The translations under genes were made by a program, and so were the position numbers. DNA of 35,688 bases from contig JARVGL010000008.1 in NCBI GenBank assembly GCA_029762575.1, forward strand, positions 1 through 35,688, given 5' to 3'. This DNA comes from Thermoplasmatota archaeon (GTDB lineage Archaea > Thermoplasmatota > E2 > DHVEG-1). This document shows positions 5,551 through 28,006 of this stretch, piece after piece; position 1 is the first letter of the stretch; each line of letters starts with the position of its first letter. Under the pieces are notes generated by a model. It did not search any database, was not told the DNA's origin, and worked only from the letters and a program-made list of their open reading frames with translations.

Positions 5551-6633
5551 CTATGTTTTACTTGAGATCATTTCCATTGAGAATGAGGCGACGGATTTGA
5601 AGATTCGGTATTGGAAGATAGCTCCTGCGATAAGCCCCATATGATACGTTATCAATCGGAAGAGTAAGACAAAGACACCAAGAAGCGAAGGTGCCATGAA
5701 TACTCCGTACAGCGCTGCAACCCCTCCTTCTGAAACTCCGCTACTTCCTGGTGTCGTAGGCATCATTGCAATGATGATGAGCAGTATTTGTGCGGCGCAG
5801 GATTCAAGGATGAATGGTTGTATACCAAGACCTAAAAGGAGAAGGATTGGGATTATCCATCCTGAAATCCAAAAGAGAGCAGTTACAAACCCTGCGAGAA
5901 AAAAAGTTTTCTTTCCTTTTGTCAAGAAGAAGGTCATACTTTTATGGAAGTTATCCACTTCTTCAGATATTCTTTCAATGATGTGAGGTGATGTCTCTTT
6001 TTTTCTCATTTTCTTATACGATCTTGTTATTCTTATCAGAAATCCCTTTGTTTTTTCAGGGTATTTCAATGCATAGGCGAATAGTCCAATGACTACGAGG
6101 AAAAGCCCGATGGCTATTCCAAATCCGATCTGTAGATAGGTGTTTGTGATGTAACTTCCGAAGATATAGATGGCAAAGGGTACTGATACTAAAAGAAACA
6201 ATGCATCTAATAGTCGTTCTCCTAGGACGGCTGCTGTTGCTCCTCCAATGTTCAAACCATTTTTATTGAGAAGATAGATTCGTACTGGTTCTCCCCCAGC
6301 CATTGAAGGTGTGATGTTTGCAAGGAAAAGGTTTGCTATCACTATCTTTGTTGATTCCCATAGGCTGATATGGAATGATTTATCCACAGCATCACTTAGG
6401 ATCTTTAAGCGAGCTCCCCAGAGTGTCCAAAAAATGATGTTCATTAACGCTGCTGCGATAAAGAACTCGTAACGAATAGGTGTTGTGGTGAGGTACTGGA
6501 TTGTTTCTGCAGTGATCGTGAAATAGAGTAAGATTATGATGATTGCAACACTAAGGAGGATGCTAAAAAGGATGGAATATTTGACCGTCTTTCTTTTTTC
6601 TTGCTTTTTAGTCACAACCCAGGTAATTACCAA
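5551..6633 (-). CDS. UPF0104 / LPG-synthase-TM family membrane protein (flippase-like)
   Basis: ~360 aa with about eight hydrophobic helices. Signatures of the PF03706 family are present: NLFLANITPSMAGGEPVR (~98-115; G-E-x-x-R signature) and MMPTTPGSSGVSEGG (~292-306; P-G-x-x-G-x-x-E/G). Members include the transmembrane half of lysylphosphatidylglycerol synthases and archaeal AglD-type/flippase-like proteins acting on lipid-linked substrates. Here the soluble aminoacyltransferase domain is absent, so a lipid or glycolipid translocation role is more likely than lipid lysylation. It is the distal gene of the minus-strand glycan cluster. The start is uncertain: TTG at 6633 or GTG at ~6615; neither has a clear SD. 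Confidence 0.82.
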   Translation of the reverse strand: MVITWVVTKKQEKRKTVKYSILFSILLSVAIIIILLYFTITAETIQYLTTTPIRYEFFIAAALMNIIFWTLWGARLKILSDAVDKSFHISLWESTKIVIANLFLANITPSMAGGEPVRIYLLNKNGLNIGGATAAVLGERLLDALFLLVSVPFAIYIFGSYITNTYLQIGFGIAIGLFLVVIGLFAYALKYPEKTKGFLIRITRSYKKMRKKETSPHIIERISEEVDNFHKSMTFFLTKGKKTFFLAGFVTALFWISGWIIPILLLLGLGIQPFILESCAAQILLIIIAMMPTTPGSSGVSEGGVAALYGVFMAPSLLGVFVLLFRLITYHMGLIAGAIFQYRIFKSVASFSMEMISSKT

Positions 6634-6684
6634 TGCTTTATGATTCTTATGGTTTACACAATCGATTACACAATATGCGAAGTA

Positions 6685-9171
6685 TCATTTTTTTAAGATT
6701 AGCTGTAAAGAGGTTGAATAGATGCCACCATGTGTCCAATTCGTTTCATATGTTCTATCGATTGCAACCAATCCATCTTTTTTAGTGATGGATGGAAAAT
6801 ATCCTTTGAGCCGGCATCCTTGTATCTGTATATTCTTATCATCTATGATTTGAGCAGGAGCATCTATTACGGGGATAAAGACACCGTCACAAGAAAGATC
6901 ATGAGTGAGAACAGAGACGTTTAGCGGATCGATATCGATATGTGCCGCATCCTTTGAACTATAAAGATGAATGGAGAGATTGATCTCGTGAAATTGTGAT
7001 CGTATCTTGATTGCTGCTTGGATGGGGGAGATGATGGTAATTGAAGATGATTGTATATGGTTTGAGAAAGGATCAAATGATGTTTTTGCAGGCTTCTTTG
7101 GTGCTTTTACTCCAGTGATTGCATAGAGCGCATCCTTAGCACCTAAGAGATATTTCCCAGTTTTGCCTCTTAGAGCTAGTATTAGTTTCTGTTTTATTTT
7201 TTTTCGTTTCCCATATGGCCCGTTGAAGGAGAGACTAATGCCTTTTGGCCCTAAGGAAACATCTTTTAGATAGGTTATCTTGCATTGAGATGCATCTATC
7301 GAACAGAGTCGTTGTTTCTTATGAAAGAGTGTTAGTATATCATTATCTTGAATTATCTTGAAGTCATCATCTTTTCTTTTTTGTTTTTTGGCCGTTGGTT
7401 CTTTACCTTTCTTTTTCATGAATTGGAATGAGGCTTGCATGAGTTCAACAGTTGCAAAGGTTTGCTCCATTGGAAGAGGTTTTAGTGATGATTGATAGCG
7501 GGGAAACACTCCTTCTGATAATCCCCCTGTTTTAGAGATGAAAGGGATAACAGAATGGTAACAGATTGTTGCAAGATTCTTCCAAAATGATTGATCCGCA
7601 TAGGTAGAAAGTCGAAGGAACAAGGAAACAACCCATGCTGTTTCATAGGGGGAGACCCGCGGAGTGATGGAATATGATATTGGATGGAAGGTGTAGGAAA
7701 GATCCCAATGCTTCGTGTTATACGTATAGATCCATGTGATAAGATACAATGCATAGGTGAATGCTTGGGAGAGGTATTCCTTATTTTTTGTAGTATCATA
7801 TCCATCAAGGAATGCATTGATGATTGATACAGCAGAGAACGCTTCAGCTTCATGGATGCCGATGTCCCGTAATCCCTGGTAACAGATCGGATAGACGGTC
7901 GTGAGGAACGCTAAACCTTTTTTTGCTGCTTCCTTATATGTCTTATCTTTATAGACTTCAGAGGCAAGTAATAAGGCACGGACCGCTTCTCCAGTTCCTC
8001 CGTAGGTGACAAAGTGTTCTAGTTTCTCTGGTCTGAAACGAATGATACCTTGTTGTCTGATGGCCATAGGCCACGAACCATCATCATGTTGTGTCGAAAT
8101 GATATAGCGGACGGTTTGATGGACCCTTTCCTGTAAGGATTCATCCGGATTCCGTTTTAGATACTGGAGGAGATGATAGACTGTTGTCGCTTGTCCTCCC
8201 GGATACCCAGCATATCCACAATCCATATAGAAATACCCTGTCAATCCTTTTTTAGTAAGATTGGTCATATTATACCAGATCAATCCTTCTCCTTTTCTCA
8301 AAGGTCTTGTGGAGAGACGGGGGTTAGTGAAATGATTTTTAATTTTTTGTTGCCACTTTAAAAGATCAGTATCCTTTCGTGATTGAGACCAATTCGAGAA
8401 ATAATCCAATCGAACTGCTTCATAGGAGAGCAGGGAATAACTTGAGTTTTGAAAAGTAAATCCGGGGTTATCTCTCCAGGGCAGCTGTATAAATGATCCT
8501 GTGAGATCATCATATGATCTCCACAAGGCTTTCTTTGCTTTATGAAAGATCTCCTCTACATCCGGTAATGGTTTTGATTGACGGAGATGAGATGTAAAAA
8601 ACGATTTCACTACATCCTGCCAAGAAGGATACTCTCCGACCTCTATTTTAAATCGAAATGTATCTTCTTTTGAGAGGGCAACAGTGATATTCTTTTTTCT
8701 TCCTTTCCCAAGCCATGCGTTCTCTTTTGTTTTTATCTGATAGGAAGTGAAAAGATAAAAAGATATCACAAAATCTTTATCGTTTTCTTCCAAACAGATG
8801 AATGGATACATCTCGTTGTCGTTTATGTCTAAAACCGGATCAAAGGTGATAGCGGTACATGTTGTATCAGATTGGAGGATGAACAACGGGGTCTTTATGT
8901 ATAGTGCTGAGCGGTAGAGTTTGTTCTCTTGTTCTTTATCTAGTATCTTAAACGTATAATATGTGGAAAAGGGAAACGGTAATGAGATCTGTTGTTTGAA
9001 GGAGAATTCATCGTGTGTATACCACATGCCTCCAAGAAAACTATATCGAAGACCTTGTTTCTCTATTCTTATCTTTTTTAGAAGATAGACTGGTTTCTCT
9101 TCTAGTATGATATAGATATCATCGTCGACCGAAAACGCTTCATCTATCTCTTCTACATACATAAAACTCAA
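6685..9171 (-). CDS. Large alpha/alpha-toroid protein, glycan-cluster associated (unknown activity)
   Basis: 828 aa, no signal peptide or membrane segment, so apparently cytoplasmic. Three parts can be inferred: a beta-rich N-terminal region (~1-200), a helical repeat region (~210-565) with alternating helices and loops such as AGYPGGQATTVYHLLQYL (~320), HDDGSWPM (~360) and YGGTGEAVRALLLASEVY (~388), and a beta-rich C-terminal region (~620-828). The helix-hairpin pattern resembles six-hairpin glycosidases, polysaccharide lyases and uronate-epimerase-like toroids. It sits 6 nt after a GT4 gene in a run of glycosyltransferases, so action on a glycan or sugar nucleotide is likely. A stretch of Lys-rich linker lies at ~588-605. 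I do not recognise a specific family and assign no reaction. Confidence 0.7.
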   Translation of the reverse strand: MSFMYVEEIDEAFSVDDDIYIILEEKPVYLLKKIRIEKQGLRYSFLGGMWYTHDEFSFKQQISLPFPFSTYYTFKILDKEQENKLYRSALYIKTPLFILQSDTTCTAITFDPVLDINDNEMYPFICLEENDKDFVISFYLFTSYQIKTKENAWLGKGRKKNITVALSKEDTFRFKIEVGEYPSWQDVVKSFFTSHLRQSKPLPDVEEIFHKAKKALWRSYDDLTGSFIQLPWRDNPGFTFQNSSYSLLSYEAVRLDYFSNWSQSRKDTDLLKWQQKIKNHFTNPRLSTRPLRKGEGLIWYNMTNLTKKGLTGYFYMDCGYAGYPGGQATTVYHLLQYLKRNPDESLQERVHQTVRYIISTQHDDGSWPMAIRQQGIIRFRPEKLEHFVTYGGTGEAVRALLLASEVYKDKTYKEAAKKGLAFLTTVYPICYQGLRDIGIHEAEAFSAVSIINAFLDGYDTTKNKEYLSQAFTYALYLITWIYTYNTKHWDLSYTFHPISYSITPRVSPYETAWVVSLFLRLSTYADQSFWKNLATICYHSVIPFISKTGGLSEGVFPRYQSSLKPLPMEQTFATVELMQASFQFMKKKGKEPTAKKQKRKDDDFKIIQDNDILTLFHKKQRLCSIDASQCKITYLKDVSLGPKGISLSFNGPYGKRKKIKQKLILALRGKTGKYLLGAKDALYAITGVKAPKKPAKTSFDPFSNHIQSSSITIISPIQAAIKIRSQFHEINLSIHLYSSKDAAHIDIDPLNVSVLTHDLSCDGVFIPVIDAPAQIIDDKNIQIQGCRLKGYFPSITKKDGLVAIDRTYETNWTHGGIYSTSLQLILKK

Positions 9172-9177
9172 TAATGG

Positions 9178-10146
9178 TTAGGAATCAAGGGTAGTCTGAT
9201 AAAGGTTTACATGTTGTCTAGCTATGTCCCTGATATTATACCTCTGAACATCATATGTTTTCCGTTTATATTTTAAAAGATTGTTTTCACTAAAGACATC
9301 CTCAGTAATATCTAAGATGTCATCATAATAATAGATCATATCCGAAAAAGCTTCCATATATTCTTCTGTACGTCGCGCAATCATCGGTAGCCCCATTGCA
9401 AGAGCTTCAAGCATGACGATGGAATGACCTTCTGCATAGGATGGCATAAGAAAGACGTCTGCACCAGAGTATACTTCAAAGATATCCTCAACAAACCCTG
9501 GAAAAATTGTATTGTTTGCTGCATGCTTTAATGCGGTTGTCACGTTACGAAAATCCTTTGAGAACAGACCATAGGGGAATCCACCGATCCAGATGAACCT
9601 CTTCTCTTTAAATCTCTCTGCAAGATCTAAGAAATCATAGATGCCTTTTCGAGGTGTACGCTGAGCAACCGTAAGCACCACAAGCTCATGATCTTTGATA
9701 TGATAGTGTTCTCTAAATCGTGTTCTTTTTTCGTTGGTCGATCTGAATTTCTTTAGGTCAATACCGTTATATATCGTTGAGATTGGTTTGATACACCCCA
9801 TCTCTTTTAGTTCCTGTTCACATTTATTTGAAACAGCGATGATATGGTCAAATTGATTATAAATTGGTGTATATAACCAGTTGACAAGACGCGGAAATGC
9901 AAGGTTTCCTTCGTTAAGCTGTGGCGTTGAATGTGCAGTGATGATCTTTTTTCCTTTGAAACGTTTTAGATACAATAGTGATCTAGGTCCAAAGGTATGA
10001 AGATGACAGAGATCATAGGATAATGATGTATCGTTATATGAGATATCGATTGATTCAGATAATGTATTGTAGAGGTTTTTTGCTGCAGTAGCACAACCAA
10101 GGTATTGCAATGGACCAGAATCCTCAACGATAAAATTAATTCTCAT
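9178..10146 (-). CDS. Glycosyltransferase family 4 (GT-B)
   Basis: 322-aa retaining GT-B transferase. The N-lobe carries the glycine-bearing loop PLQYLGCATAAKNL, HLHTFGPRS and ITAHSTPQL; the C-lobe has STIYNGIDLKKF (~123-134), LTVAQRTPRKGIYDFL, GFVEDIFEVYSGADVFLMPS and the E-x7-E motif E239/E247 in YAEGHSIVMLEALAMGLP. These are standard GT4 donor-binding features. It is a compact member, with a shortened N-lobe compared with ~370-400 aa homologues. Donor and acceptor cannot be read from sequence. It is followed 6 nt later by the alpha/alpha-toroid gene and preceded 40 nt earlier by the GT-C protein, all on the minus strand, which suggests one surface-glycan or glycolipid pathway. Confidence 0.92.
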   Translation of the reverse strand: MRINFIVEDSGPLQYLGCATAAKNLYNTLSESIDISYNDTSLSYDLCHLHTFGPRSLLYLKRFKGKKIITAHSTPQLNEGNLAFPRLVNWLYTPIYNQFDHIIAVSNKCEQELKEMGCIKPISTIYNGIDLKKFRSTNEKRTRFREHYHIKDHELVVLTVAQRTPRKGIYDFLDLAERFKEKRFIWIGGFPYGLFSKDFRNVTTALKHAANNTIFPGFVEDIFEVYSGADVFLMPSYAEGHSIVMLEALAMGLPMIARRTEEYMEAFSDMIYYYDDILDITEDVFSENNLLKYKRKTYDVQRYNIRDIARQHVNLYQTTLDS

Positions 10147-10186
10147 ACTAACGTCCCTTTTATAGTATATCGCTTATGTAGGCGCA

Positions 10187-11974
10187 TCATAAGTTGATCT
10201 TTGAATAATTGACCTTATAGATCTCGATCCAATGCTCTTCAGTTAGTTGATCGTTATATGTTGCATTTCTATAGATCATCTCGAAGGGGGATGTTTGGAA
10301 TTTCTCATAGGATCTATTGGTAAGATAATAATACTGTCCAACATCAATATTGATGACTTTCTCAAACATGATATCATCTATGATGATATGGGTGATATTC
10401 AAACGTGTTATCTCAGGTATGCATTCGGTGCTCTCGTTAGAGGTCCAGATGGCGCTTGTGATATTATCGATACCTAGAGGTATCTTGAACCCTGACGCCC
10501 ATGCTAGCATAGAGAGTCGATGATCTGACGCGATGATACTACTACTGCTTAGGTTCCCTTGCATCCATTCAATACAGTTGATACAGGGATCAGAGACACG
10601 TTCATCGATATGATCTAAGGAATCAATGGTTGGATAAGCTACGATCATATTTGAGACAAAGAGGATAAGGATACTTCCAATCACTCCTATCTTTTTCATA
10701 TGATGATGCATAGTAAACGTAGATGATTGGGGATTGAATAGATGTCTCTCAGAACTCTCTTTGTATTCCTTAATGAATTCGTTTAATAATAGGGCAGCAG
10801 GGATACAGAGTGGAACAATGAGATACTCTAAATGCCGATCGGGGAACAATCCCCCTGAGACGATGGCATAGAGAAACGAAAACATGATCCCCATGATCCA
10901 TCCTTTGATGAACATATTGCCTTTTTGTTTTGGTAGAAATGAGAAACCAGCAAAGGCAAAGCTTACAAGTACGATCATTGGAATTGAAAGTAGGATGGAG
11001 AGATGGGTCAACGGTGCATAGACACCACGAAGACCAGTGAACGAGATGATAATTGTTGCAAGGAAGATAAGGGAAAACACAATGACGATCTTCTTTTCCT
11101 TTGGAATGTTTTTCCCTATTGATATCGGTGGGAGACTAGGATATTGTTTTTTATAGAATCGGATGAAGAGGACGCCACTGAAGATGAACGTATAGAACAA
11201 AAGGATGACACCGATGGGAGGTATGAACATCTTCTCTGTAAAAAAGGCAAAGACCGGGGTAGCAATGAACCCCCAATATCCAAATGCTATCGTTGCAGCT
11301 AGACCAATATAGAAGAGGAGATGATACAGATGTTTCGATGTCACTGACCGTTCCATCGTATAATAGAATAACATAAACGTGATACTAATTAGATAGAAAT
11401 AAGTGGTGAAATGATGGGAGAGTATGAGAAGAACCGTAGAGAGAAGAAGGGGGATGAAATATTTCTGATCCTTGATGTATTTAATGAAGAAATACAGCGA
11501 GAGCATCATGAATAGATGTCCGACCGTTAAGGGTGCCGCATGACTTGTTTGATAGATATGAAACGTTGAAACGGAAAGTAATGCTGAAGCGAGTAAAGCG
11601 ATTTTCTGTTCTCCGATGAGCTCTTTTACAATAAAATAAAAGACCGGTATCGTCAAACCACCGATGATCGGTGCAATCTTAGGCAGTAATGAAATGACCT
11701 CTATACCAGTTATCCAGTGAAGGATACCAGTGATAGTATAAAGGACAGGAAAATATTGATAGGAAGAACCCCAACCATCGTAAAAGTTTATCAGTTCTTT
11801 TGTCTCAAGAAACGAGTTTGTAAGCCCATAATAGATACCAAAATCAACCCCCCATGCAGCATTGAACAATGAAGGTATCATTCGAAGCAGTATCCCTAGA
11901 CCTGTGATGAGTATCAACCAGAATATCCAATGATGTACCATCAATGAAATATGTGCTGATCGATTCCATTTCAT
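10187..11974 (-). CDS. Multi-pass GT-C glycosyltransferase-like protein
   Basis: 595 aa with a dozen or so hydrophobic helices over residues ~14-430 and a soluble C-terminal domain of ~165 residues. After the first helix the extracytoplasmic loop contains WGVDFGIYYG (D44), the acidic motif position of GT-C enzymes, then WGSSYQYFPVLY. The pattern resembles archaeal/bacterial PMT-, ArnT- or STT3-like GT-C proteins that use polyprenyl-phosphate sugars outside the membrane. The C-terminal part has CINCIEWMQGNLSSSS followed by a Rossmann-like ASDHRLSMLAW segment, common in this protein group. Acceptor (protein, lipid or other glycan) is unknown. Within the minus-strand glycan cluster. Confidence 0.82.
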   Translation of the reverse strand: MKWNRSAHISLMVHHWIFWLILITGLGILLRMIPSLFNAAWGVDFGIYYGLTNSFLETKELINFYDGWGSSYQYFPVLYTITGILHWITGIEVISLLPKIAPIIGGLTIPVFYFIVKELIGEQKIALLASALLSVSTFHIYQTSHAAPLTVGHLFMMLSLYFFIKYIKDQKYFIPLLLSTVLLILSHHFTTYFYLISITFMLFYYTMERSVTSKHLYHLLFYIGLAATIAFGYWGFIATPVFAFFTEKMFIPPIGVILLFYTFIFSGVLFIRFYKKQYPSLPPISIGKNIPKEKKIVIVFSLIFLATIIISFTGLRGVYAPLTHLSILLSIPMIVLVSFAFAGFSFLPKQKGNMFIKGWIMGIMFSFLYAIVSGGLFPDRHLEYLIVPLCIPAALLLNEFIKEYKESSERHLFNPQSSTFTMHHHMKKIGVIGSILILFVSNMIVAYPTIDSLDHIDERVSDPCINCIEWMQGNLSSSSIIASDHRLSMLAWASGFKIPLGIDNITSAIWTSNESTECIPEITRLNITHIIIDDIMFEKVINIDVGQYYYLTNRSYEKFQTSPFEMIYRNATYNDQLTEEHWIEIYKVNYSKINL

Positions 11975-12051
11975 CCCTAATCACCTAATTGGTATCTGTC
12001 GCTCTTATATCGAAATGAGATATTGATTATTGTTTAAATGGGTTTGGGTTT

Positions 12052-13119
12052 TTATGTCCCTATGATTTGCAGCATGTGATCCACTGTCTCATCGACAGTT
12101 CTTTTAGCGATGAATCCTTTTGACCCTTTAGCGATTTCAACATCTCTACTTAGTTGAAGTGCATCTTGGGTGATGGTATGACACGAGTTTTTTTCTTTGT
12201 GGTATTCTGCAAGATATTCCTGCTCTATCTGACCCGGTGTTGGTATCATGAGTGCTTTAGTCCCTATGATTGCTAGATCTGAGATCGTCGAATACCCGCT
12301 CCGAGATATCACGAGTTTTGACTTATTTAAAAGCTGCTCCCGTTGCTCAGTAGGAAGGGAGGTATAGGTCTGCACATGGTCGTTAGTTATCTTTTCCACT
12401 GTCTCTGGTTTTCCCAGGGTCATGACAATAGTACCCGATAGGTCATCTATTTGTGAGAGTATCCGTTGTTCCAACAATGATCTCTGAGGTTCAGGGCCTG
12501 AGAGGGAGATGAAAAAATCAATATCCTTTTTTAAATTCCTTTTTTTAAAATCAGAGAGCACACCAACATAATGAAGGTTTTTTTCATCAATCTTCTTTAG
12601 ATTATGTGACAAATCTCCAGATAATCCGTCTGTTCTATAATCTGGGATGATTATCTCTTTGAAACGTTTGAAGAAAAAAAGATTGAATGTTTCACTTCCT
12701 CGTTCAAAGAGTTCAAATCTCATAGGGTTCATTATTCTCATCTGATGAGAGATGAAATAAGAGGGAATCGATCTACTATACATATCATATCGACCATCTG
12801 AGATGATCCTATCGCACGGTTGTGTCTTTAAAAGTTTTATCAATCGTTGAAGACCTGATTCCATCCGTTGAATAAATAAAGGCCAGTAGACCATACTCTT
12901 TGCAATGAACTGTTGTTTGTTCTCTGAGACCAGTAATGGATAATCTGGGATATCAACAAAGGATGCAGCATCCTTGAGTTCATTTTGTAAAAGGGTCAGT
13001 GCACGGTCATGGGATATGATAGTTAACGTATGGTCCTCTTTGATCAAACGACGAATAACAGGTAATGATCGAGTCGCATGACCTAATCCCCAGGAACAGA
13101 TCGCATAAATGATGTTCAT
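12052..13119 (-). CDS. MurG/GT28-like glycosyltransferase
   Basis: 355 aa from the start chosen here. It opens with MNIIYAICSWGLGHATRSLP, the glycine-rich GLGHATR loop (~11-17) of GT-B enzymes of the MurG / MGDG-synthase / UDP-GlcNAc-transferase type (PF13528-like). The C-lobe contains FISLSGPEPQRSLLEQ, then LVISRSGYSTISDLAIIGTKALMIPTPGQIEQEYLA, the donor-binding G-x-S/T-T-x-x-E/D-like segment and P-x-P/E-Q-E loop. A 17-residue in-frame extension to 13170 is possible but runs through a TATA-like TATTTTTTTAA at 13145-13155 (minus strand); that box would place the transcript start almost at the ATG 13119, a leaderless gene. Likely first gene of the cluster, acting on the cytoplasmic face. Confidence 0.88.
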   Translation of the reverse strand: MNIIYAICSWGLGHATRSLPVIRRLIKEDHTLTIISHDRALTLLQNELKDAASFVDIPDYPLLVSENKQQFIAKSMVYWPLFIQRMESGLQRLIKLLKTQPCDRIISDGRYDMYSRSIPSYFISHQMRIMNPMRFELFERGSETFNLFFFKRFKEIIIPDYRTDGLSGDLSHNLKKIDEKNLHYVGVLSDFKKRNLKKDIDFFISLSGPEPQRSLLEQRILSQIDDLSGTIVMTLGKPETVEKITNDHVQTYTSLPTEQREQLLNKSKLVISRSGYSTISDLAIIGTKALMIPTPGQIEQEYLAEYHKEKNSCHTITQDALQLSRDVEIAKGSKGFIAKRTVDETVDHMLQIIGT

Positions 13120-13144
13120 CGATGGATGGGTATTTCTTCTTACA

Positions 13145-13155
13145 TTAAAAAAATA
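13145..13155 (-). promoter_or_regulatory. TATA-like promoter of the glycan cluster
   Basis: On the minus strand this reads TATTTTTTTAA, centred about 31 nt upstream of the ATG at 13119. It supports the internal start and a very short or absent leader. The divergent pyrF gene starts at 13210. Confidence 0.45.
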
Positions 13156-13209
13156 CCGAGATAGCAACATTTTTAGATTGCTCTATGATGACTTTTTGAG
13201 GATATCCCT

Positions 13210-14025
13210 ATGGATTTCAATACCAAATTAGAAACAATTTCTCGGAAAAACGATAGTCTTGTCTGCGTTGGTCTCGATGTCGATAAGGAAAAAATGCCTC
13301 AGTTTCTTTTTGATACGAGCGATGATCCCTTCTTTGAATTTACAAAAGAGATAATCGATCAAACAAAGGATATTGTGTGTGCATATAAACTGAATATGGC
13401 GTTCTATGAAGCGTTAGGATCCATCGGTTACAGAATATTGCGAAACACAGTCCGGTATATACCAAAAGAGATAGTTGTCATTTTAGATGGAAAAAGAAAT
13501 GATATCGGTAACACTGCTAAGAAATACGCTGAAAGTCTTTTTGAAGACATTCATGCAGATGCGATAACAGTTAACCCCTATCTAGGATTTGATGGGGTCA
13601 AACCATTCTTAGACTATCCAGATACCTGTAGTTTCATCCTCTGCAGGACATCAAATAGATCTGCAGGTGATTTTCAGGACCTAAAAAGCGATGGAAAACC
13701 ACTCTACATCCATGTTGCCCAGAAAGTAAAGACCTGGAATGAAACAGGTACCTGTGGTGTCGTCGTTGGTGCAACATATCCTGAGGAGCTTAAAGAGATA
13801 CGAACAATACTAGGGGATTCTGTTCCGTTCCTTATCCCTGGTATCGGTACACAAGGCGGAGATGTTAAGAAAACAGTGGAATATGGGACAAATACCCATA
13901 AGGAACTAGCTGTTATCAATTCATCAAGAGGTATCATCTTTGCAGGCTCCGAGGATGATTATGCTGAGAAAGCTCGGGATGCAACGATACTACTAAACAA
14001 AGAGATCAATATCTATCGGGTCTAG
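13210..14025 (+). CDS. pyrF: Orotidine 5'-phosphate decarboxylase, type 2
   Basis: 271-aa TIM-barrel enzyme that decarboxylates OMP to UMP, the last step of pyrimidine synthesis. The catalytic Lys/Asp array is visible: CVGLDVD (~19-25), AYKLNMAFYE with K60, and VVILDGKRNDIGNTA with D93, K95 and D98. The C-terminal phosphate-binding region has VVGATYPEEL, LIPGIGTQGGD and NSSRGIIFA. The length and the DGKRNDIGNTA form match subfamily 2 (TIGR02127-like), frequent in some bacteria, rather than the ~215-aa form usual in archaea. GAGG at 13198-13201 precedes the ATG by 8 nt, confirming the start. It is divergent from the glycan cluster. Confidence 0.94.
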   Translation: MDFNTKLETISRKNDSLVCVGLDVDKEKMPQFLFDTSDDPFFEFTKEIIDQTKDIVCAYKLNMAFYEALGSIGYRILRNTVRYIPKEIVVILDGKRNDIGNTAKKYAESLFEDIHADAITVNPYLGFDGVKPFLDYPDTCSFILCRTSNRSAGDFQDLKSDGKPLYIHVAQKVKTWNETGTCGVVVGATYPEELKEIRTILGDSVPFLIPGIGTQGGDVKKTVEYGTNTHKELAVINSSRGIIFAGSEDDYAEKARDATILLNKEINIYRV

Positions 14026-14468: not shown

Positions 14469-16043
14469 TTATACCCATGGCCATAGTCGATACCATTGCC
14501 CACCGATATATACCTCAATAAGCATGGAGAGGAAATCAATATCTCCAGTTGAGTTGATATTCCATTCTATTGGTGGCCATATCGTCCAATCCAAGCGGAA
14601 ATCCTCAGCTTTAAATGTTTCAGCAACAGTTCGAATACCAGTATCGCTTCCACGTATCAATAGGTCCATTTGATTCAACGGCTGCCAATTCGTATCATAG
14701 GTTAGATATCCAGTGATATCTGTTAGCCATGAGACGCTTATCTCCTCTGCTACTGGCCGGGCATCCAATCGTGCCTCCCACACTCCTATTATGAATGCAA
14801 GATCAATATGAAACGATGGGTCCTTTACAATTCTGAGGTCTCCGGGATTTGTGAAATTCCAGAATGCGGTCAGATCAACATCAGTAACACCGTACATTGA
14901 GAGATCTATCGTAGGGTTTTCCAATGAGTCAAGAAGACTGATATCCGTTCCATCTGAGTCGATTTCAAGATGATACCATCCTCTCTCTTTTACTGGCAAC
15001 CATTCTGCAAACAGCATCCGTGGTGTATTCTTTATAATGGCATAGTTACAGGCACCTAGTTCATTTGTTTCAATGAGAACATCCATGTCGTACATGGAAT
15101 CACTTGTATAATAAACACTTCCGCCTTCTGATGAGAAGGGAGTAATTCGAAGCGAAAATGATACAGTTCTTGGGAATTTGTTGAAGGTAAGGATCGTTTC
15201 CTTTGTCTCTGTAGGTAGCGTTCTTGATCGTCCCATGGTTAAGATAGTATCATATTCTGTGTTTCGTGTTAGTTTATAATTCCATTCATTTGGGTCTTTT
15301 GTCGATGAGATGGTCATCTGGGTTTTTGATGGTGGGTCAAAGGAGAAGAAATGAGAGTGTTGTACAGTATCTTCTGATGTATACGAGTTGAAGAAGACGA
15401 GTTTTTTATTTCCAATGTTAGTAGCGTATGTTGGTTCCATGGATATGGTGAATCCTTTTGAGCTATCTAGCATATTATAAAAGAGTAGAACGGATAGTTG
15501 GATATGAGTTGGTATCTCATTTCCACTTTTTTCAGGGGCCCAGTATCCAACGGAGACTAGATCATTTCCAAGGGTTGCGGTAATGTTGAATTCTGTTTCT
15601 TTGATCTCTTCACCTATTCGTTGGATGTTTACAACGAATTTTAGACCAAGGATAAATGCAGGGTCGATCTCAATATGGGGGATAAGATAGTATTGAACCT
15701 GGATATCGTTTCCGTTGATCCCTGTTGATTCGTCTCCATCAACATCAATAGCGTTGATCATTCCAAACGTAATCTTTGATGTTTTCTCAACACCTGAACA
15801 AGTTGTCCGTATAGTGCTTGTTAGAAGATCATAAAGATCTATTTGTTTTTGTAACGAGAGAATATTGTTTAATAATCTAGTAAGACTGTTACTGCGAATT
15901 TTTTGTGATGGTTGACCTATCAGGTTTTGAATATTAATCCCTGTTTTTTCTTCGTTCAATTGTGATATGCCAGAAGCGCTGGCTAGATTTATCATCAATA
16001 ATGAAAGAATAATTACTATGCCCTGTATCGTCTTTTGTTTCAT
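14469..16043 (-). CDS. Secreted protein of unknown function
   Basis: About 524 aa from the ATG at 16043, which is preceded 7 nt upstream by GAGGTGA (16051-16057); a longer in-frame start at 16085 is therefore not preferred. It opens MKQKTIQGIVIILSLLMINLASA, a clear signal peptide. The mature part is beta-rich, with an Asp-rich DVDGDESTGINGND loop (possible calcium site), several Ser/Thr-rich strands and repeated FNITATLGND / SFSLRITPFSS-like beta segments; no cysteine pairs or C-terminal anchor were seen, so it is probably released or surface-bound through other partners. I recognise no catalytic motif or family. It diverges from the C25 peptidase gene and may serve the same extracellular system. 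Function unknown. Confidence 0.8.
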   Translation of the reverse strand: MKQKTIQGIVIILSLLMINLASASGISQLNEEKTGINIQNLIGQPSQKIRSNSLTRLLNNILSLQKQIDLYDLLTSTIRTTCSGVEKTSKITFGMINAIDVDGDESTGINGNDIQVQYYLIPHIEIDPAFILGLKFVVNIQRIGEEIKETEFNITATLGNDLVSVGYWAPEKSGNEIPTHIQLSVLLFYNMLDSSKGFTISMEPTYATNIGNKKLVFFNSYTSEDTVQHSHFFSFDPPSKTQMTISSTKDPNEWNYKLTRNTEYDTILTMGRSRTLPTETKETILTFNKFPRTVSFSLRITPFSSEGGSVYYTSDSMYDMDVLIETNELGACNYAIIKNTPRMLFAEWLPVKERGWYHLEIDSDGTDISLLDSLENPTIDLSMYGVTDVDLTAFWNFTNPGDLRIVKDPSFHIDLAFIIGVWEARLDARPVAEEISVSWLTDITGYLTYDTNWQPLNQMDLLIRGSDTGIRTVAETFKAEDFRLDWTIWPPIEWNINSTGDIDFLSMLIEVYIGGQWYRLWPWV

Positions 16044-16050
16044 GAGAAGT

Positions 16051-16057
16051 TCACCTC
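16051..16057 (-). promoter_or_regulatory. Shine-Dalgarno deciding the start of the secreted protein gene
   Basis: Minus-strand GAGGTGA lies 7 nt before the ATG at 16043. A TATA-like CATTATAAGAA at ~16089-16101 (minus strand) is placed correctly for a short leader carrying it. Confidence 0.65.
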
Positions 16058-16159
16058 TTGTTATACCCAGTATATCTTTTATCATTTCCTTCTTATAATG
16101 GTTTCGAGATTATCATCGTTTTTTAACGAGAAATCCATAAAAATATCATTTTTTTGAGG

Positions 16160-16175
16160 TATCGTCTAAACGATA
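16160..16175. repeat. Small palindrome between divergent secreted-protein genes
   Basis: TATCGT-CTAA-ACGATA, a 6-bp inverted repeat in the 300-bp space between the divergent genes at 16043 and 16341. Possible operator; weak evidence. Confidence 0.25.
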
Positions 16176-16296
16176 AAACGATTTTACTTGTTTGAAATGA
16201 GATATTTTTCTGAACAGAGGAGTTTTGTAGGGTGCTCTCATGACCAATGAATCCTTAGTGCGAGAGATCACATGAAAAGAACTTAAATATTATAAA

Positions 16297-16306
16297 CTTT
16301 ATATAA
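16297..16306 (+). promoter_or_regulatory. TATA-like promoter of the C25 peptidase gene
   Basis: CTTTATATAA lies ~40 nt before the ATG at 16341 in a very AT-rich stretch. Transcription would begin near 16328, close to a GGGGGT (16326-16331) that can act as ribosome site. Confidence 0.45.
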
Positions 16307-16340
16307 CTACTATTTATATTATGATTGGGGGTAAAAAAAT

Positions 16341-18305
16341 ATGAAATATTTTTCCATAATCGCAGTGTCTCTTCTTCTGATAAGTGGCATTGCAACAATA
16401 GGGATAAGTGAAACAGATAATGAACAAGGCTGTATCGTAAGCGTTATAGAATTTAAGGACCCATTGTTCAAAGAGACTAGTATCAATGGTCAAGATTTTT
16501 TTGAAATCATCTCTTTAGATTCATTTGGATTGATGAGGTCAGAGGGAACACCACTTCTACCAAGAAAGATACAGACCTATGAATTTCCGCAAGGCACTCG
16601 AATTGTTGACGTTCAGATAGAGATTGACCTAGTAAAGACGATTACGCTCTCTGAAAAAATACTTCCTGCACCAAAACCTGTTATCCGGGGAAGAAGCGCT
16701 GAAGCAGTCTATGAACTCAGTCCTGAAATCTACGATAACAATGAGTATTTCCCAGAAAGACCCTATACTGTTCATTTAGGTGGCGGATTGAATAGTGAAA
16801 ACAAACGAACCACCTTTATCACCCTTGAATCATTTCCCGTTCAATATAATCCTATCTCTGATACACTGCGTTATGCTGAGGAGATGACCATTACTATATG
16901 GTATGAGGAACCACAATCTCCTTTTATATCTACGGTTAATGAGTATGATATGGTGATCATTTCACCATTGGTCTTTTCCGATGATCTTCAAAGATTAATC
17001 GATCATAAGAACTCATATGGTATGAGAACGTATCTAAAGACAACTGAGGATATCTATCAAGAATATCCTGGTGTTGATAAACCTGAACAGATTAAATTTT
17101 TCATAAAGGATGCAATCGAGACGTTTGATATCACTTATGTGATGCTTGTAGGAGGATTGAAATCTCCGTTATGGGCAACACCTCGGGATGACAAGAATCA
17201 AGGTACTAAAGATTGGTTGTTACCTGTTAGATATACTAATCTACGGGAGATGGGAAGTGTCTATGATCCTGGATATATCAGTGATCTCTATTTTTCTGAT
17301 ATCTATGATAGTGATTTTAATTTCTCTAGTTGGGATCAAGATAGGAATGGTGTGTCTGATGGAATCTTTGCGCAATGGGGAGTATTCGGTGGTTCTAAAG
17401 ATATCATTGATCTCTATCCTGATGCCTATGTGGGTCGACTTGCTTGTCGTAATAAAAGAGAGCTAGGGTATATGATAGATAAGATCATCACCTACGAGAC
17501 ATCTACCTCTGGATCAGAATGGTTCACTAGGATCATTGGTGTCGGCGGTGATTCTCATGATGATTCAGGGACCAATTTTATTGAAGGAGAGGTTGTCTGT
17601 GATGCTATCTTTGATATGTATATGGATGATTTTTCTCCTGTGAAACTCTATGCATCCTATAAGGATACGAAACCTGATTATATCCCAAGTGATACCAATA
17701 TCGTTAGAGAAGTAAGCAACGGTGCAGGGTTCCTCTTATTTGATGGTCATGGTTCTCCTGGTTCATGGAATACCCATTGGCCTGGCGAGTTCAACTGGGC
17801 TGATACACCAGGAGGCATCAGCTGTTATGATTTCTTTGATATGGGTAATAAAGGTAAATATCCTGTATGTGTGATCGGTGGTTGTCATAATAGTCAATTC
17901 AATATCACCCTTATCTCTACAGCATTAAACCTTCCATTCACCTGGGCTCATGGTGTTCCATATGCTGAATGTTTCGCTTGGCATCTAGCTAGGAAAAAAG
18001 ATGGAGGCGCTATTGCATCCTTAGGAAACACGGGATTAGGCTATGGCGCCATCGGTAATCATGGTGACCTTGACGGGGATGGTATCGATCTACCAGATAC
18101 CGTTGAAGCAGTAGGTGGCTATCAGGAGGCAATGTTCTTTAAGACATATCATGAGGGTGTTGATATCCTTGGCGCGGTCTGGGGTGGTGCAGAACGAAGC
18201 TATCTTAACACGTATCCAGGGATGGCCGATCAAACGGATTGTAAAACAGTTCAACAATGGCCATTGCTTGGTGACCCCAGTCTTAAGATTGGTGGATACG
18301 AATAA
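16341..18305 (+). CDS. Secreted gingipain-like cysteine peptidase (family C25)
   Basis: 654 aa with an N-terminal signal peptide (MKYFSIIAVSLLLISGIATI). A propeptide-like beta region (~25-200) is followed by the C25 caspase-fold domain beginning YDMVIISPLVFSDDLQRLI (~205). The catalytic dyad is visible: H470 in FDGHGSPGSW and C515 in VIGGCHNSQF. A calcium-loop-like DQDRNGVSDG occurs at ~331-345, and the frame ends QWPLLGDPSLKIGG, typical of archaeal C25 homologues. No C-terminal sorting helix was seen. C25 enzymes are extracellular endopeptidases, known in detrital-protein-degrading sediment archaea. It is convergent with the M28 peptidase gene, separated by 17 nt, implying a shared protein-degrading role. 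Specificity (Arg/Lys or otherwise) cannot be read here. Confidence 0.93.
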   Translation: MKYFSIIAVSLLLISGIATIGISETDNEQGCIVSVIEFKDPLFKETSINGQDFFEIISLDSFGLMRSEGTPLLPRKIQTYEFPQGTRIVDVQIEIDLVKTITLSEKILPAPKPVIRGRSAEAVYELSPEIYDNNEYFPERPYTVHLGGGLNSENKRTTFITLESFPVQYNPISDTLRYAEEMTITIWYEEPQSPFISTVNEYDMVIISPLVFSDDLQRLIDHKNSYGMRTYLKTTEDIYQEYPGVDKPEQIKFFIKDAIETFDITYVMLVGGLKSPLWATPRDDKNQGTKDWLLPVRYTNLREMGSVYDPGYISDLYFSDIYDSDFNFSSWDQDRNGVSDGIFAQWGVFGGSKDIIDLYPDAYVGRLACRNKRELGYMIDKIITYETSTSGSEWFTRIIGVGGDSHDDSGTNFIEGEVVCDAIFDMYMDDFSPVKLYASYKDTKPDYIPSDTNIVREVSNGAGFLLFDGHGSPGSWNTHWPGEFNWADTPGGISCYDFFDMGNKGKYPVCVIGGCHNSQFNITLISTALNLPFTWAHGVPYAECFAWHLARKKDGGAIASLGNTGLGYGAIGNHGDLDGDGIDLPDTVEAVGGYQEAMFFKTYHEGVDILGAVWGGAERSYLNTYPGMADQTDCKTVQQWPLLGDPSLKIGGYE

Positions 18306-18322
18306 ACATCTTCCATCTTCTT

Positions 18323-19636
18323 TTACTTTCTTTTATTATTTATTAAAGGGTTGATGAAGAATATGTCCATGAAATCTGTTGTTTGTTGTCCAAGTCTATT
18401 GTATCCAATGACTTTTATCCTGTGAGTGCCCATTGATCGAAAGTTACATTCCCATTGAAATGGCGGTGTTGTATCTGTTGTTGCAAGGATGTCATCATAA
18501 TAGAATTCAACATGTGTTAACTGAGTATATGGTTGTGTTTCTGCTTTGATAGTGATTCTATCAAAGACCATTGCTGTCATTTTATTTATAGGTTTTATAT
18601 AGGTATCTTTTCTGTATATTGTTTGCCTTTTTGGTGAAATGATCTGTAGTTGAGGAGATATTATCTGAACATCTGCTAGATATGCTAATGTTCCTGTGAT
18701 GAGTTTTGTCGTATTAATTAGATAGCTATAATTGATGTTTGATAGGTCATCCTCTGGTGTATGCATGTTTGGGTCACCCTCTCCTTGCCAGCATGCCACT
18801 GCCTCATAGCCATAGACGACAAAAGGATGATAATCACTCCAACCTCTACCCTCTCTATCGATAGCTCCTGCGCCTAAATCGAAGTTCAAATTGGCGATAT
18901 CGTTTATCGTTGAGAACACATCAAGAACCATGGATGCATCTTCGGTTATTGAAAACCTCATTGAAGATCCTCCCTTCTTTGTTGTTGCATGTCCTATCAT
19001 GTCTGCGTTGAGATCAAACAGGATGTTATCATTACGATGATATGCTTCCTTTGCATATGCCCAACTTCCTTTCAATCCGATCTCTTCCCCTGAAAATGTA
19101 ACGAATCGGAGCGTTCGATCAAATATGAATTGACTAAGGATATATGCAGAAGCAAGGACTGCGACGACGCCTGATCCATCGTCGTTGGCACCTACAGTGT
19201 TCTGTACTGTATCGTAATGAGCGCTGAAGATGATTATCTCATCTGATGTGCCGGGTAAGGTTCCTTCTATGTTTTGACTCGTGAAGAATCTAGGATGATA
19301 TCTATTCCCAAAATCTGACCAATCATGTAATCGAACGTCTAGATCCATAGAGGTGAATTGATCATGGATAAATAATGCAGCTTGCTGACATCCATATGTT
19401 CCTGTATATCGAGGGCCACAATCAATGAGTGGTTCAAAGAATGATCTAAGAAGGTCTTCAGTGATCATATCTAGGATTGTTTCAATTTTTTCAGAGGATG
19501 TTAGATTGTTGAGAGCTGTAAACATTAAAGGTTCTTTAAGGGTTGAAGGAACTAAGGGAAGTACTAGACCACTGGATTGGGTTGAGAGAATGAGAAAGAT
19601 ACATATGATGGTAACTGTGGTCCCTGTATGTTTCAT
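18323..19636 (-). CDS. Secreted M28-family zinc peptidase with C-terminal Ig-like domain
   Basis: 437 aa: signal peptide (~1-23), M28 aminopeptidase-type domain (~50-320) and an Ig-like beta domain (~350-425). Zinc and catalytic residues can be seen: H140 in FSAHYDTV, D152 in GANDDGSGV, E184/E185 in FSGEEIGLKG, D212 in LNADMIGH and H270 in SDYHPF. This is the complete di-zinc set expected for M28. It would release amino acids from peptides outside the cell. The Ig domain (VEFYYDDILATTDTTPPFQW) is of the kind that attaches to surfaces or substrates. It is tail-to-tail with the C25 gene, a pairing that makes sense as endopeptidase plus exopeptidase. Confidence 0.92.
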   Translation of the reverse strand: MKHTGTTVTIICIFLILSTQSSGLVLPLVPSTLKEPLMFTALNNLTSSEKIETILDMITEDLLRSFFEPLIDCGPRYTGTYGCQQAALFIHDQFTSMDLDVRLHDWSDFGNRYHPRFFTSQNIEGTLPGTSDEIIIFSAHYDTVQNTVGANDDGSGVVAVLASAYILSQFIFDRTLRFVTFSGEEIGLKGSWAYAKEAYHRNDNILFDLNADMIGHATTKKGGSSMRFSITEDASMVLDVFSTINDIANLNFDLGAGAIDREGRGWSDYHPFVVYGYEAVACWQGEGDPNMHTPEDDLSNINYSYLINTTKLITGTLAYLADVQIISPQLQIISPKRQTIYRKDTYIKPINKMTAMVFDRITIKAETQPYTQLTHVEFYYDDILATTDTTPPFQWECNFRSMGTHRIKVIGYNRLGQQTTDFMDIFFINPLINNKRK

Positions 19637-19749
19637 AGTATACTTTATATCAAAACCATTAGCTAATATATAGTTTTCGCTATAAAATCTTTTTAAAAGA
19701 GAATGAAATAGTGCTCTTGCGCTATGGTTTTTGTTGTAGGATACAGTGT

Positions 19750-20157
19750 TTATTTCAGTTTGAACTCGGTGGAGTTGATACTTGCGTTTTTCTTCTTTGG
19801 GCTTATCTTATCTTCTCTAGCAAGCCATCCTATCGCGGAATAGGCATCCTTCTTTTGTATCTTTGATATCTTAGCAATTGAAGAGACATTGATCTCTCCA
19901 AGATTGATAAGTGTAGTATAGAGCTTCCCAGCGTTTCCACCAATCTTTTCTGTAAGATTTGTTGGGCTGAGATGATATTTCCCTTGAGTATAACATATCT
20001 TATCTTCTCGGGCAAGCCAGCCAATGGCCGCATAGAAATCCTCTTCTTTTAATCGTGTTTTCTTTAGTAATATTTTTTCCTCAAGTGATCCTTTTTTGCT
20101 TAATTCGGCCCATATCTTTCCAGCATTCCGTCCGAACTTATCAATTATATCAACCAT
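19750..20157 (-). CDS. Tandem winged-helix protein (DUF2582-like duplicate)
   Basis: 135 aa made of two copies of one ~60-residue unit: GRNAGKIWAELSKKGSLEEKIL..EEDFYAAIGWLAREDKI and GGNAGKLYTTLINLGEINVSSI..KKDAYSAIGWLAREDKI. The AIGWLAREDKI end is identical in both. It fits the PF10771 winged-helix family, normally a single unit, here duplicated in one chain. It may bind DNA or other protein partners; target unknown. ATG 20157 is preferred over an in-frame TTG at 20166. It lies between the M28 and C39-like secreted protein genes. Confidence 0.8.
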   Translation of the reverse strand: MVDIIDKFGRNAGKIWAELSKKGSLEEKILLKKTRLKEEDFYAAIGWLAREDKICYTQGKYHLSPTNLTEKIGGNAGKLYTTLINLGEINVSSIAKISKIQKKDAYSAIGWLAREDKISPKKKNASINSTEFKLK

Positions 20158-20354
20158 AAAAACCAACCCAATTGAACAATAATCTTAATGATGTTCATAT
20201 ACCTTCTGTTTTTTTCAAGAAAAACCCATTGTTAGCGTTCAGATCATGTAGCCGATTTCATACTGCTTCATATCGTCACTAGTAACATATCCATTTTTTT
20301 TGATACACACCTTTTTATATTGAATTAATAATTATTTTTTATGCTGGTGACAGA

Positions 20355-21746
20355 ATGAAAGCATACTTTCTAATGATCTTCATTTCATTTCTGTTCTGTT
20401 CAACATCGTTTTCCATGGGGTTTACCTCGATTGATCCAACTGTGCCTCGAAGTATCCAGGTTGAAGAAACAAATAATAGTCATATCATTGAACAGATTCC
20501 GTATGTGTCTCAGGAGACTGATTTTTATTGTACCTATGCATGTCCAACGATGATACTTAATTTTCTTGGCTGTAATACAAGCCTCTATGAAGTTCTTTTT
20601 TCTTGTGGTGCTGGGTATTCTGTTCTCTATTCCCATCCCTTAGTCAAACGATTCCTTATTGGTTGTATTGGGACAAGTAACTGGGAGATGGATAGAAGGT
20701 TTTTAGGAAGTCTCTATGGTATATCGTATGTGGAACATCGTTTTTCTGGTATTGATGGCGATGAATCGGAAAAATGGGATATCTATTGGGATACCATCCG
20801 GGCATGTGTTTCTAACGATCAGCCTGTTCTCACTATCGTGGATCCTTCATGTCTTTCCTCGGTTCGATCAGCGATACAGGATATGCTTGGCATCCCAGAT
20901 AGATTATGGATGCTCATCCCGGAGGCTGTGTTCAGTCTGTTCCCTTCAACGATGACCCATATGATCCTTATTGTAGGATTCAACGAAGAGAATGGGACCA
21001 TATGTTATCATGATCCTTCTGCTGCGTTGTTCGGTGATGCATCCTATGGTACCTATGAATGGATGGATACTACGCCCATCAGGAGGACGATGAAGCATCT
21101 TTCATCGTTTTCCCCTTTTGCATATATGGTGGGCTATTTTCAAGGGATAGATACTACTGCCTTTACCCTGGAACAACGTTTTGAGATGTCTCGCTATCGT
21201 AATATCCAAAAGATGAGTGGAGATCCCCTAGGTTATGATGATCAGATCCATGCGACATGGAGTGAATCAGAACTTGGTGTCAAAGGATTACGTATGCTGT
21301 ATACGGATCTAGGTCCTGGTGTAGAGCATCGATATACAACAATACTACTTTATAGGATACTGTGTACAGGTCTTCTTTACTCGTTCTCATATAAAGTCTA
21401 TCGGTTTTTCGATAGATATCTCTCTTCAGTCCTCACTCTTTCGGATTTTCAAGAGCAGATGAACTATATATATCAATTAACCCTCGAGAAACAAGATGTC
21501 TCAAAGTGGTTATATACACTAAGTGATCGTTTGGATAATGAAACACTTTCATCTATCTGTCGGCATGATGCATTTCTTTTAAAAAAGGAAGCAGATGTCT
21601 GCGAGCGGTTAGCTGAGAATTTCTCAGTATTCTTAGAAAAAGGCATCTGGTTACCTTTTCCAAAAAGTCTTGATGTTGTTTCAAACATGGCCCTACTTGT
21701 TTCAGAGATGATTGCTTTTGAAGAAGCTATGATAAGGTATCCGTAG
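20355..21746 (+). CDS. Secreted C39/papain-like cysteine peptidase-like protein
   Basis: 463 aa with a signal peptide (~1-22). The N-terminal domain (~45-245) has the C39-type layout: IPYVSQETDFYCTYACPTMILNF-type opening with candidate nucleophile C59, then THMILIVGFNEENG with H202, then YHDPSAALFG with D220. Together these give a Cys-His-Asp triad consistent with C39-like or BtrH-N-type papain-fold proteins. The rest (~250-463) is helical and unrecognised. No ABC-transporter half follows, so it is not a bacteriocin exporter. A TATA box (~20313-20320) and GGTGA at 20346-20350 precede the ATG. It may process surface or extracellular proteins next to the C25/M28 peptidases. Activity is inferred. 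Confidence 0.72.
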   Translation: MKAYFLMIFISFLFCSTSFSMGFTSIDPTVPRSIQVEETNNSHIIEQIPYVSQETDFYCTYACPTMILNFLGCNTSLYEVLFSCGAGYSVLYSHPLVKRFLIGCIGTSNWEMDRRFLGSLYGISYVEHRFSGIDGDESEKWDIYWDTIRACVSNDQPVLTIVDPSCLSSVRSAIQDMLGIPDRLWMLIPEAVFSLFPSTMTHMILIVGFNEENGTICYHDPSAALFGDASYGTYEWMDTTPIRRTMKHLSSFSPFAYMVGYFQGIDTTAFTLEQRFEMSRYRNIQKMSGDPLGYDDQIHATWSESELGVKGLRMLYTDLGPGVEHRYTTILLYRILCTGLLYSFSYKVYRFFDRYLSSVLTLSDFQEQMNYIYQLTLEKQDVSKWLYTLSDRLDNETLSSICRHDAFLLKKEADVCERLAENFSVFLEKGIWLPFPKSLDVVSNMALLVSEMIAFEEAMIRYP

Positions 21747-26839: not shown

Positions 26840-28006
26840 TTATTGTATGTTGAGGATAGGGTCCCATGATTTTAAAAAGTTCGATAGCCCAATGGGTCTA
26901 AAATCTACTCTATCCTTACCGAATAATGTAGTATATCTTTGATGTACTTCATTGATTCTTTGTATATCTGCTTGGTCATTCTTATCCGGCTTTTTATCGA
27001 TTGCTACGATTCTTGGATTGTTACTGTTATTTATCAATGCTTTTGTTAATAGACTTCGTATATGGTGGTCAGCAGGATCAAGTGAATATCCAATAAAAAT
27101 AATTTCATCTGACTTTGATAGTGTTCTCTCTGCTTCAACCCAAAGTTGTTGTAAAAATGAATTATCATATAATTTTAACATCGTCGGTGTCACAATAAGA
27201 GGTTGATAATTAGAAGTACAAAAACGGTTTACACATATGAATTTATCGTGGTCGCCAGCTAGTTCATTTGCACCTTTACGACCAATGGTAATATCTAATT
27301 CATCGCATTTCGGGCAATAAAACCAATTCAAAGATCCATGAAGTTTCAAAAAAGGTATCTTTCCTTCATTCAATGTACCCTCGTGAGTTGCATTGCCTCC
27401 TTGATATGTCCAATGTTCATTACTATGAACCTTGACTTGTTCCAATTTCTTTTTAGGATTCCAAAAGATATTTTTTCTTAGACGAATCTGATAATTACTA
27501 CTTTGTATGATCTCAAGTAATGCATTATCCATTATAATATCATAATTTGTCGAGATTATTGAAACATCAATATTTCTTTTATAGAGTTCATGTAGTTTTT
27601 CAATAAAGATACGACTTGGTTTCAATATGTCTGGATTTGTTGATTCTTCTATCGTCTTTTTAATAACGGTACTTATCAGAAAGATCATATCTTTTTTAAT
27701 TTCCAAAACATCTTCGAATAGATAATTTTTAGATAAAGATTCCTTTCTTTGAATTACATAATCAATAAGACTTGAAACATCTTCTATTTTTGGATAATTC
27801 TGCTTTCCAACGGTGTAATAATTGTTCTCAATGAATTGCTTGACGCGTTGCACACGAAGATCTTTGATAAAACTTCTTTTTTCATCAAATGCAAATTCGA
27901 AAAATTCTGATCCTTTCGGTGCAGTATTAACAACTGCTTTAGTGAATCCTGCACCTATAAAAAATACCACATTTCTCTTTATCATCTTGGAATTTAATGT
28001 ATGCAT
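26840..28006 (-). CDS. Stand-alone SIR2-domain protein (possible defence NADase)
   Basis: 388 aa (M8 at 27985 is an alternative start). Rossmann fold of SIR2_2 type (PF13289-like): FIGAGFT (18-22; GAG loop), SIISTNYDIIMD with N154 and D156, FLKLHGSLNWFYCPKC with H223, a zinc-ribbon insertion C231/C234 and C258/C263, and FIGYSLDPADHHIRSLL near the C-terminus. The N/D/H set is that of an NAD-cleaving SIR2 domain. Related single-gene and multi-gene systems (ThsA, DSR, SIR2-HerA type) degrade NAD on phage infection. No partner gene (HerA, Argonaute) is nearby, so a single-gene role or unrelated sirtuin-like role remain open. It lies in the accessory stretch next to an IS remnant. Confidence 0.8.
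   Translation of the reverse strand: MHTLNSKMIKRNVVFFIGAGFTKAVVNTAPKGSEFFEFAFDEKRSFIKDLRVQRVKQFIENNYYTVGKQNYPKIEDVSSLIDYVIQRKESLSKNYLFEDVLEIKKDMIFLISTVIKKTIEESTNPDILKPSRIFIEKLHELYKRNIDVSIISTNYDIIMDNALLEIIQSSNYQIRLRKNIFWNPKKKLEQVKVHSNEHWTYQGGNATHEGTLNEGKIPFLKLHGSLNWFYCPKCDELDITIGRKGANELAGDHDKFICVNRFCTSNYQPLIVTPTMLKLYDNSFLQQLWVEAERTLSKSDEIIFIGYSLDPADHHIRSLLTKALINNSNNPRIVAIDKKPDKNDQADIQRINEVHQRYTTLFGKDRVDFRPIGLSNFLKSWDPILNIQ

Follow-up and report, generated by a model that had tools for sequence, protein, structure and literature searches.

A C25 peptidase, an M28 peptidase and a predicted exported papain-like protein encoded side by side in a Thermoplasmatota archaeon

Gene content and gene order

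We analysed a 35,688-nucleotide stretch of DNA from a Thermoplasmatota archaeon (GenBank assembly GCA_029762575.1, contig JARVGL010000008.1; hereafter the window), in which a preliminary description had recognized a cluster of secreted peptidases. The five open reading frames (ORFs) that it had claimed are all present, and we refer to the unnamed ones by their first coordinate. They are listed here with the neighbouring pyrF gene.

13210..14025, + strand: pyrF, orotidine 5'-phosphate decarboxylase (PF00215, E=1.3e-31), a conserved neighbour of the C25 gene
14469..16085, - strand: predicted secreted 14469-family protein, 538 residues (524 from the likely start at 16043), with an all-beta model
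16341..18305, + strand: gingipain-like C25 peptidase with propeptide, 654 residues (PF01364, PF08126)
18323..19636, - strand: M28-family metallopeptidase with a C-terminal Big_7 domain, 437 residues (PF04389, PF17957)
19750..20166, - strand: tandem DUF2582 winged-helix protein, 138 residues, no signal (PF10771, twice)
20355..21746, + strand: papain-like protein (C39_2/C70/BtrH superfamily) with a C-terminal helical domain, 463 residues

The strands of the five genes alternate (-,+,-,-,+), with gaps of 255, 17, 113 and 188 bp; therefore, only the M28 and DUF2582 genes could share a transcript. Signal peptides had been proposed for four of the five products, and these are indeed predicted, from hydropathy alone: the 14469, C25, M28 and 20355 products have hydrophobic N-terminal stretches (mean Kyte-Doolittle values of 2.85-3.12 over 11 residues) preceded by a short, mostly basic start. 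By hydropathy, the DUF2582 protein is devoid of a signal-like N-terminus. A scan for sigma-70-type promoters, which does not cover archaeal promoters, found sites no commoner than in shuffled sequences, and a repeat search returned only the internal duplication of the DUF2582 gene.

To compare gene orders, 60 related genomes were searched with each of the five proteins, the surroundings of the matches were fetched and their gene contents compared. The C25 orthologue adjoins pyrF in a genome of the same genus (L052, G001:C129; 66% and 61% identity). In a genome of another genus (L148, G027:C33), it lies near pyrF with two ORFs between, together with four further genes found upstream in the window. 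Both loci lack the 14469, M28, DUF2582 and 20355 genes, and the 14469 orthologues are located elsewhere. The best M28 homologues of G008, G020, G024 and G028, which represent four genera, have a different neighbourhood in common. The loci of 20355 homologues never adjoin the other four families, and they have no neighbour in common with the window save a distant C25-like ORF, ~2.3 kb off, in G022.

Thus, the genes of this region could be transcribed separately, with the C25 gene anchored beside pyrF, and it is in this genome only that the M28, DUF2582, 20355 and 14469 genes stand beside that C25 gene. The five-gene order is kept in none of the relatives compared, and synteny rules out a conserved five-gene cluster; with the alternating strands, this speaks against the cluster as a unit. 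The gene contents of the relatives suggest that the proximity of the five genes owes more to chance than to conservation. We regard it as probable that these are separately transcribable genes of a peptidase-rich archaeon, among which the C25 and M28 enzymes would be independent members of the secretome, the 14469 protein a C25 accessory and the 20355 protein an exported papain-fold cysteine enzyme.

The C25 and M28 peptidases and the 14469 family

The 16341 product matches the C25 family far above the Pfam gathering score (PF01364, E=2.8e-51, 175.4 bits against 23) and carries a Propeptide_C25 domain (PF08126, E=3.4e-11, 43.1 bits). Its catalytic dyad lies where the preliminary description had placed it, with H470 in a GHG motif (17748-17750) and C515 in a GGC motif (17883-17885). 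Its structural relatives are gingipain R structures (4ief, 1cvr), with which it shares the propeptide, the HG...GC dyad and predicted export; it differs from them in being archaeal. The zinc set proposed for the 18323 product (PF04389, E=7.1e-32, 111.1 bits against a cut-off of 21.3) is likewise complete, with the metal-site motifs HYD(140), NDDGSG(151), EEIG(184), NADMIG(210) and MHT(291). Both these motifs and the family profile relate it to M28 aminopeptidases (2ek8, 6hc6, 1cp7), of which 2ek8 exemplifies its structural relatives; the C-terminal Big_7 domain (PF17957, 8.9e-7) sets it apart.

The proposed division of labour outside the cell, endopeptidase plus exopeptidase, is plausible, since the catalytic motifs of both enzymes are complete, and the same picture has been published for related archaea; what finds no support is a functional cluster of the five genes. 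Secreted C25 and M28A/E peptidases occur in metagenome-assembled genomes (MAGs) of Thermoprofundales and similar archaea of marine benthic group D (MBG-D), where C25 genes rank among those most expressed (PMC6461988), and in White Oak River sediments C25 enzymes make up 41-45% of the peptidases bearing signal peptides (PMC6752024). The window shares with these sediment archaea the export of C25 and M28 and a multicopy C25 family. It differs in its C39-like protein, as the main texts of PMC6461988, PMC6752024 and PMC9123169 make no mention of C39. The C25 enzyme may cut inside the chains of detrital protein and the M28 enzyme may trim amino termini, thereby supplying peptide uptake in the way already suggested for related archaea; each would be an independent member of a large secretome and not part of one system. 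Secretion of the two fits the protein-degrading lifestyle known for sediment archaea; the pair is ordinary and adds little to it.

The 1.58 Mb genome yields 21 hidden Markov model matches to C25 at 18 distinct places, counted by coordinates; some long ORFs were hit twice, and one of the matches falls short of the cut-off. C25 matches were found in 54 of the 60 relatives. Because C25 is so abundant in this genome, finding it beside any secreted gene is unsurprising. Domains of the PAD_porph type occur in 21 of the 60 relatives, themselves also rich in C25, and not in the window's own genome. By coordinates, two of them lie within ~1 kb of an M28 gene (G011:C23 and G035:C1, for example, hold PAD_porph).

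The 14469 product has no Pfam or NCBIfam match. Its model (predicted local distance difference test score, pLDDT, 73) consists entirely of strands, and a D-x-D-rich loop around residues 114-127 is conserved. Searched against the PDB, the model matched nothing at E<=0.001, and every template modelling (TM) score listed was <0.2. Of 80 genomes in the class, 33 encode homologues, and those that do have a single full-length copy each. A gene of this family adjoins a C25 gene in 10 of the 28 loci examined; the two are divergent in the window and convergent in G015. In family f7, 8 of 14 loci have a C25 gene on the same strand at gaps of 15-422 bp, in at least five different surroundings. The f7 partners examined and the G015 partner are C25 proteins by Pfam. 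Given how many C25 candidates each genome contains, we estimate that adjacency is expected at ~4% per locus, and by the same estimate the observed adjacency exceeds chance even when shared contexts are merged. In six genomes (G050, G053, G071, G267, G059 and G048), the C25 subfamily adjoining 14469 homologues has GHS/GHA-type and GCM(A/S)GG motifs instead of GHG and GGC, and also carries a PKD domain.

A working partnership between the 14469 and C25 families is possible, judging from gene neighbourhoods. Since genes of the two families are repeatedly found next to each other, the 14469 protein might be exported and serve C25-type peptidases as a beta-rich accessory, a weaker proposal than those made for the peptidases themselves. 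The chance that it is instead an unrelated surface protein, whose adjacency to C25 reflects peptidase-rich islands, is only a little short of even. The C25 partners of 14469 homologues fall into at least three paralogue groups, none of them orthologous to the window C25; therefore, the pairing could be the sign of a peptidase-rich island. Parts of the 14469 family also occur inside surface-type ORFs of 1500-2500 residues, and adjacency is absent from most f1 loci and from all f10 loci. Against an unrelated protein stands the tight same-strand spacing in at least five f7 contexts.

The papain-like protein encoded at 20355

The 20355 product has sub-threshold Pfam matches to C39_2 (PF13529, 23.0 bits against a cut-off of 24), Guanylate_cyc_2 and C70. 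The Guanylate_cyc_2 match was not taken to indicate a cyclase but counted as the same papain-like superfamily; PF09778, C39 and BtrH_N are discussed together in PMC10318531. The catalytic residues named earlier were confirmed in position: C59 (20529-20531), H202 (20958-20960) and D220 (21012-21014). Together with Q53, they are invariant in alignments of 11 and of 21 homologues, the glutamine being shifted by one residue in two members. All 21 homologues match C39_2 at E<=1 (best 3.2e-15), and 16 of them match BtrH_N at the same threshold (best 7.1e-11), the window protein not being among the latter. Pfam detects DUF4872 in none of the 21, versus all seven true BtrH proteins.

Scanning the genome contigs with the single 20355 sequence found nothing; the alignment-based scan with its family gave 22 loci. 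Homologues are patchy in Thermoplasmatota (16 of 390 genomes) and also occur in Thorarchaeota, where they have a C-terminal membrane anchor predicted from sequence. The named loci were deposited as Thermoplasmatales/Thermoplasmatota or Euryarchaeota MAGs. The same genome as the window encodes a second paralogue (G000:C108:5829-7202, 30% identity), which adjoins a macro-domain gene.

The preliminary description had asked for a structure comparison of the C39-like fold as a peptidase, and the outcome is divided. The core matches C70 and C39 peptidases; the best full-length matches are cysteine-dependent enzymes that form amides, of the kind that build antibiotics. With the 20355 model (pLDDT 80, predicted TM score 0.82), AziU3, CtaG and CcbD take the first 17 places among the PDB matches (E 2e-6 to 4e-3), with alignments that span both domains. 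These matches are modest, with ~430 alignment columns, TM scores of 0.34-0.59 and root-mean-square deviations of 7-11 A. In profile-profile comparison by hhalign, the 20355-family core matched BtrH_N proteins at E=1.2e-13, and the helical halves matched weakly and in register (22.2 bits versus at most 14.4 for shuffles), the comparison set being true BtrH_N/DUF4872 proteins taken from plasmids.

The protein is thus not a canonical C39 exporter protease. It shares the Q-C-H-D active site with the C39 double-glycine exporter peptidases (PF03412), but it has no neighbouring ABC (ATP-binding cassette) exporter, and its N-terminus is signal-like by hydropathy whereas theirs is a cytosolic-side domain. 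With the papain-like C39_2/C70 peptidases (3erv, 6hqz), it has in common the core sequence around Q-C and H-D and the invariant triad; it differs by its extra helical C-terminal domain of ~190 residues, predicted signal peptide and low sequence scores. With the BtrH_N + DUF4872 enzymes, AziU3, CtaG and CcbD, it shares a core homologous by profile comparison and, to judge from the modest matches of the fold search, may share the two-domain arrangement; it differs by the predicted signal peptide, the papain-type glutamine kept before the cysteine but lost in BtrH-type enzymes, and the lack of a BtrH-type His-Cys motif and, by sequence, of DUF4872.

Both a peptidase and an amide-forming enzyme are possible, the peptidase being slightly favoured. 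As an exported papain-fold cysteine enzyme, the 20355 protein would form an acyl-enzyme at C59, with Q53 at the oxyanion and H202/D220 completing the site. The acyl-enzyme might then resolve by hydrolysis of a peptide or amide bond or by acyl transfer to an amine, with the helical domain shaping the substrate site; on extracellular peptides, hydrolysis appears slightly favoured. There is an appreciable, though less than even, chance that the protein is an exported acyl or aminoacyl transferase or amide-forming enzyme of the BtrH/CcbD type and no peptidase. The two-domain fold matches, the BtrH_N affinity of core and homologues and the in-register helical match point that way, and CcbD forms an amide bond with a Cys-His-Glu triad (PMC12945683). 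The undetected DUF4872, the absent His-Cys motif and the glutamine of papain type argue against it. Moreover, one would not expect to find an acyl donor of the carrier-protein kind extracellularly. That the whole family, across Thermoplasmatota and Thorarchaeota, is an exported or surface-anchored archaeal one forming amides or transferring acyl groups, with the BtrH/CcbD-type architecture outside the cell and once fused to a PAD-type domain (L184, G064), is a more doubtful proposition.

The fusion is a 748-residue ORF (L184:1055-3301, CABMCU010000005.1, the same contig as G064:C5) that joins a 20355-type domain to a Porphyromonas-type peptidyl-arginine deiminase (PF04371, 6.1e-47), recalling the gingipain/deiminase pairing in Porphyromonas.

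The lack of an exporter, pointed out earlier, is true of the window, where no transporter gene neighbours 20355, but it may not extend to the whole family: at three loci (L187, L190 and L193), the anchored Thorarchaeal homologue directly follows genes for an ABC ATPase and a 548-residue protein. At a fourth (L195), the homologue is preceded by the 548-residue protein, with no ATPase read at that locus. Pfam was used for the L187 ATPase; those of the other loci were recognized by likeness of sequence. The 548-residue proteins have no Pfam match, and the two genes may together specify an exporter. This arrangement and the C39 homology of the core would suit a role in the processing of exported peptides such as bacteriocin-like leaders, the exporter being encoded elsewhere. 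We consider this unlikely, as a complete exporter is a conjecture, none lies beside the Thermoplasmatota copies examined, and classic C39 domains work at the cytosolic face of their exporter whereas 20355 has a predicted signal peptide. At L187, a GyrI-like/ArsR-type regulator gene follows the homologue. In a second Thorarchaeal context (L185, L188, L189, L191 and L192), the homologue stands beside radical SAM and DUF255 thioredoxin-type genes, assigned by Pfam at L185 only.

Neighbouring genes and biological meaning

The winged-helix protein noted earlier amid the peptidase genes is DUF2582 in two tandem copies (PF10771, 3.2e-33). In G023 (L161), the gene immediately after one of the M28 family, and on its strand, encodes a DUF2582 protein. 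A shared DUF2582 regulon was considered and set aside, this single pair, with its gene order swapped, being insufficient. It is quite unlikely that the five genes are a functional peptide-degradation cluster of recent origin in this species under DUF2582 control: four neighbouring predicted secreted products, three with peptidase-type active sites, the G023 pair and the recurrent 14469-C25 adjacency speak for it, but the gene order is kept in none of the relatives compared, four of the five genes could be driven by promoters of their own, the DUF2582 family has four copies in this genome and occurs in 40 of the 60 genomes, and none of the 29 homologous loci outside the window, where the C39-like and DUF2582 loci were checked, holds a C25 ORF.

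Some points weigh against the reading of independent genes with a C25 accessory and an exported papain-fold enzyme. The contigs are short, so that missing neighbours are sometimes limited by assembly; the structural matches of 20355 favour an acyltransferase-like two-domain shape; and the C25 partners of 14469 homologues are diverse paralogues.

Elsewhere in the window, positions 5551-13170 encode an LPG synthase-type membrane protein, a LANC-like protein of 828 residues, two glycosyltransferases and a 595-residue protein with no assigned family; four genes of this block keep their order with pyrF in G027. A stand-alone SIR2_2-domain protein (26840-28006; PF13289, 7e-10) is possibly a defence-type gene.

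The unusual parts of the region are the exported papain-like family and the pairing of 14469 with C25. The recurrence of that pairing gives a concrete partner hypothesis for an unnamed secreted family. The 20355 family, with predicted export and a full active site, stands between C39 peptidases and amide-forming BtrH-type enzymes. If it forms amides or transfers acyl groups, it would be an extracellular enzyme that modifies peptides rather than degrades them, and knowing which reaction it catalyses would show if extracellular peptide modification takes place in archaea.

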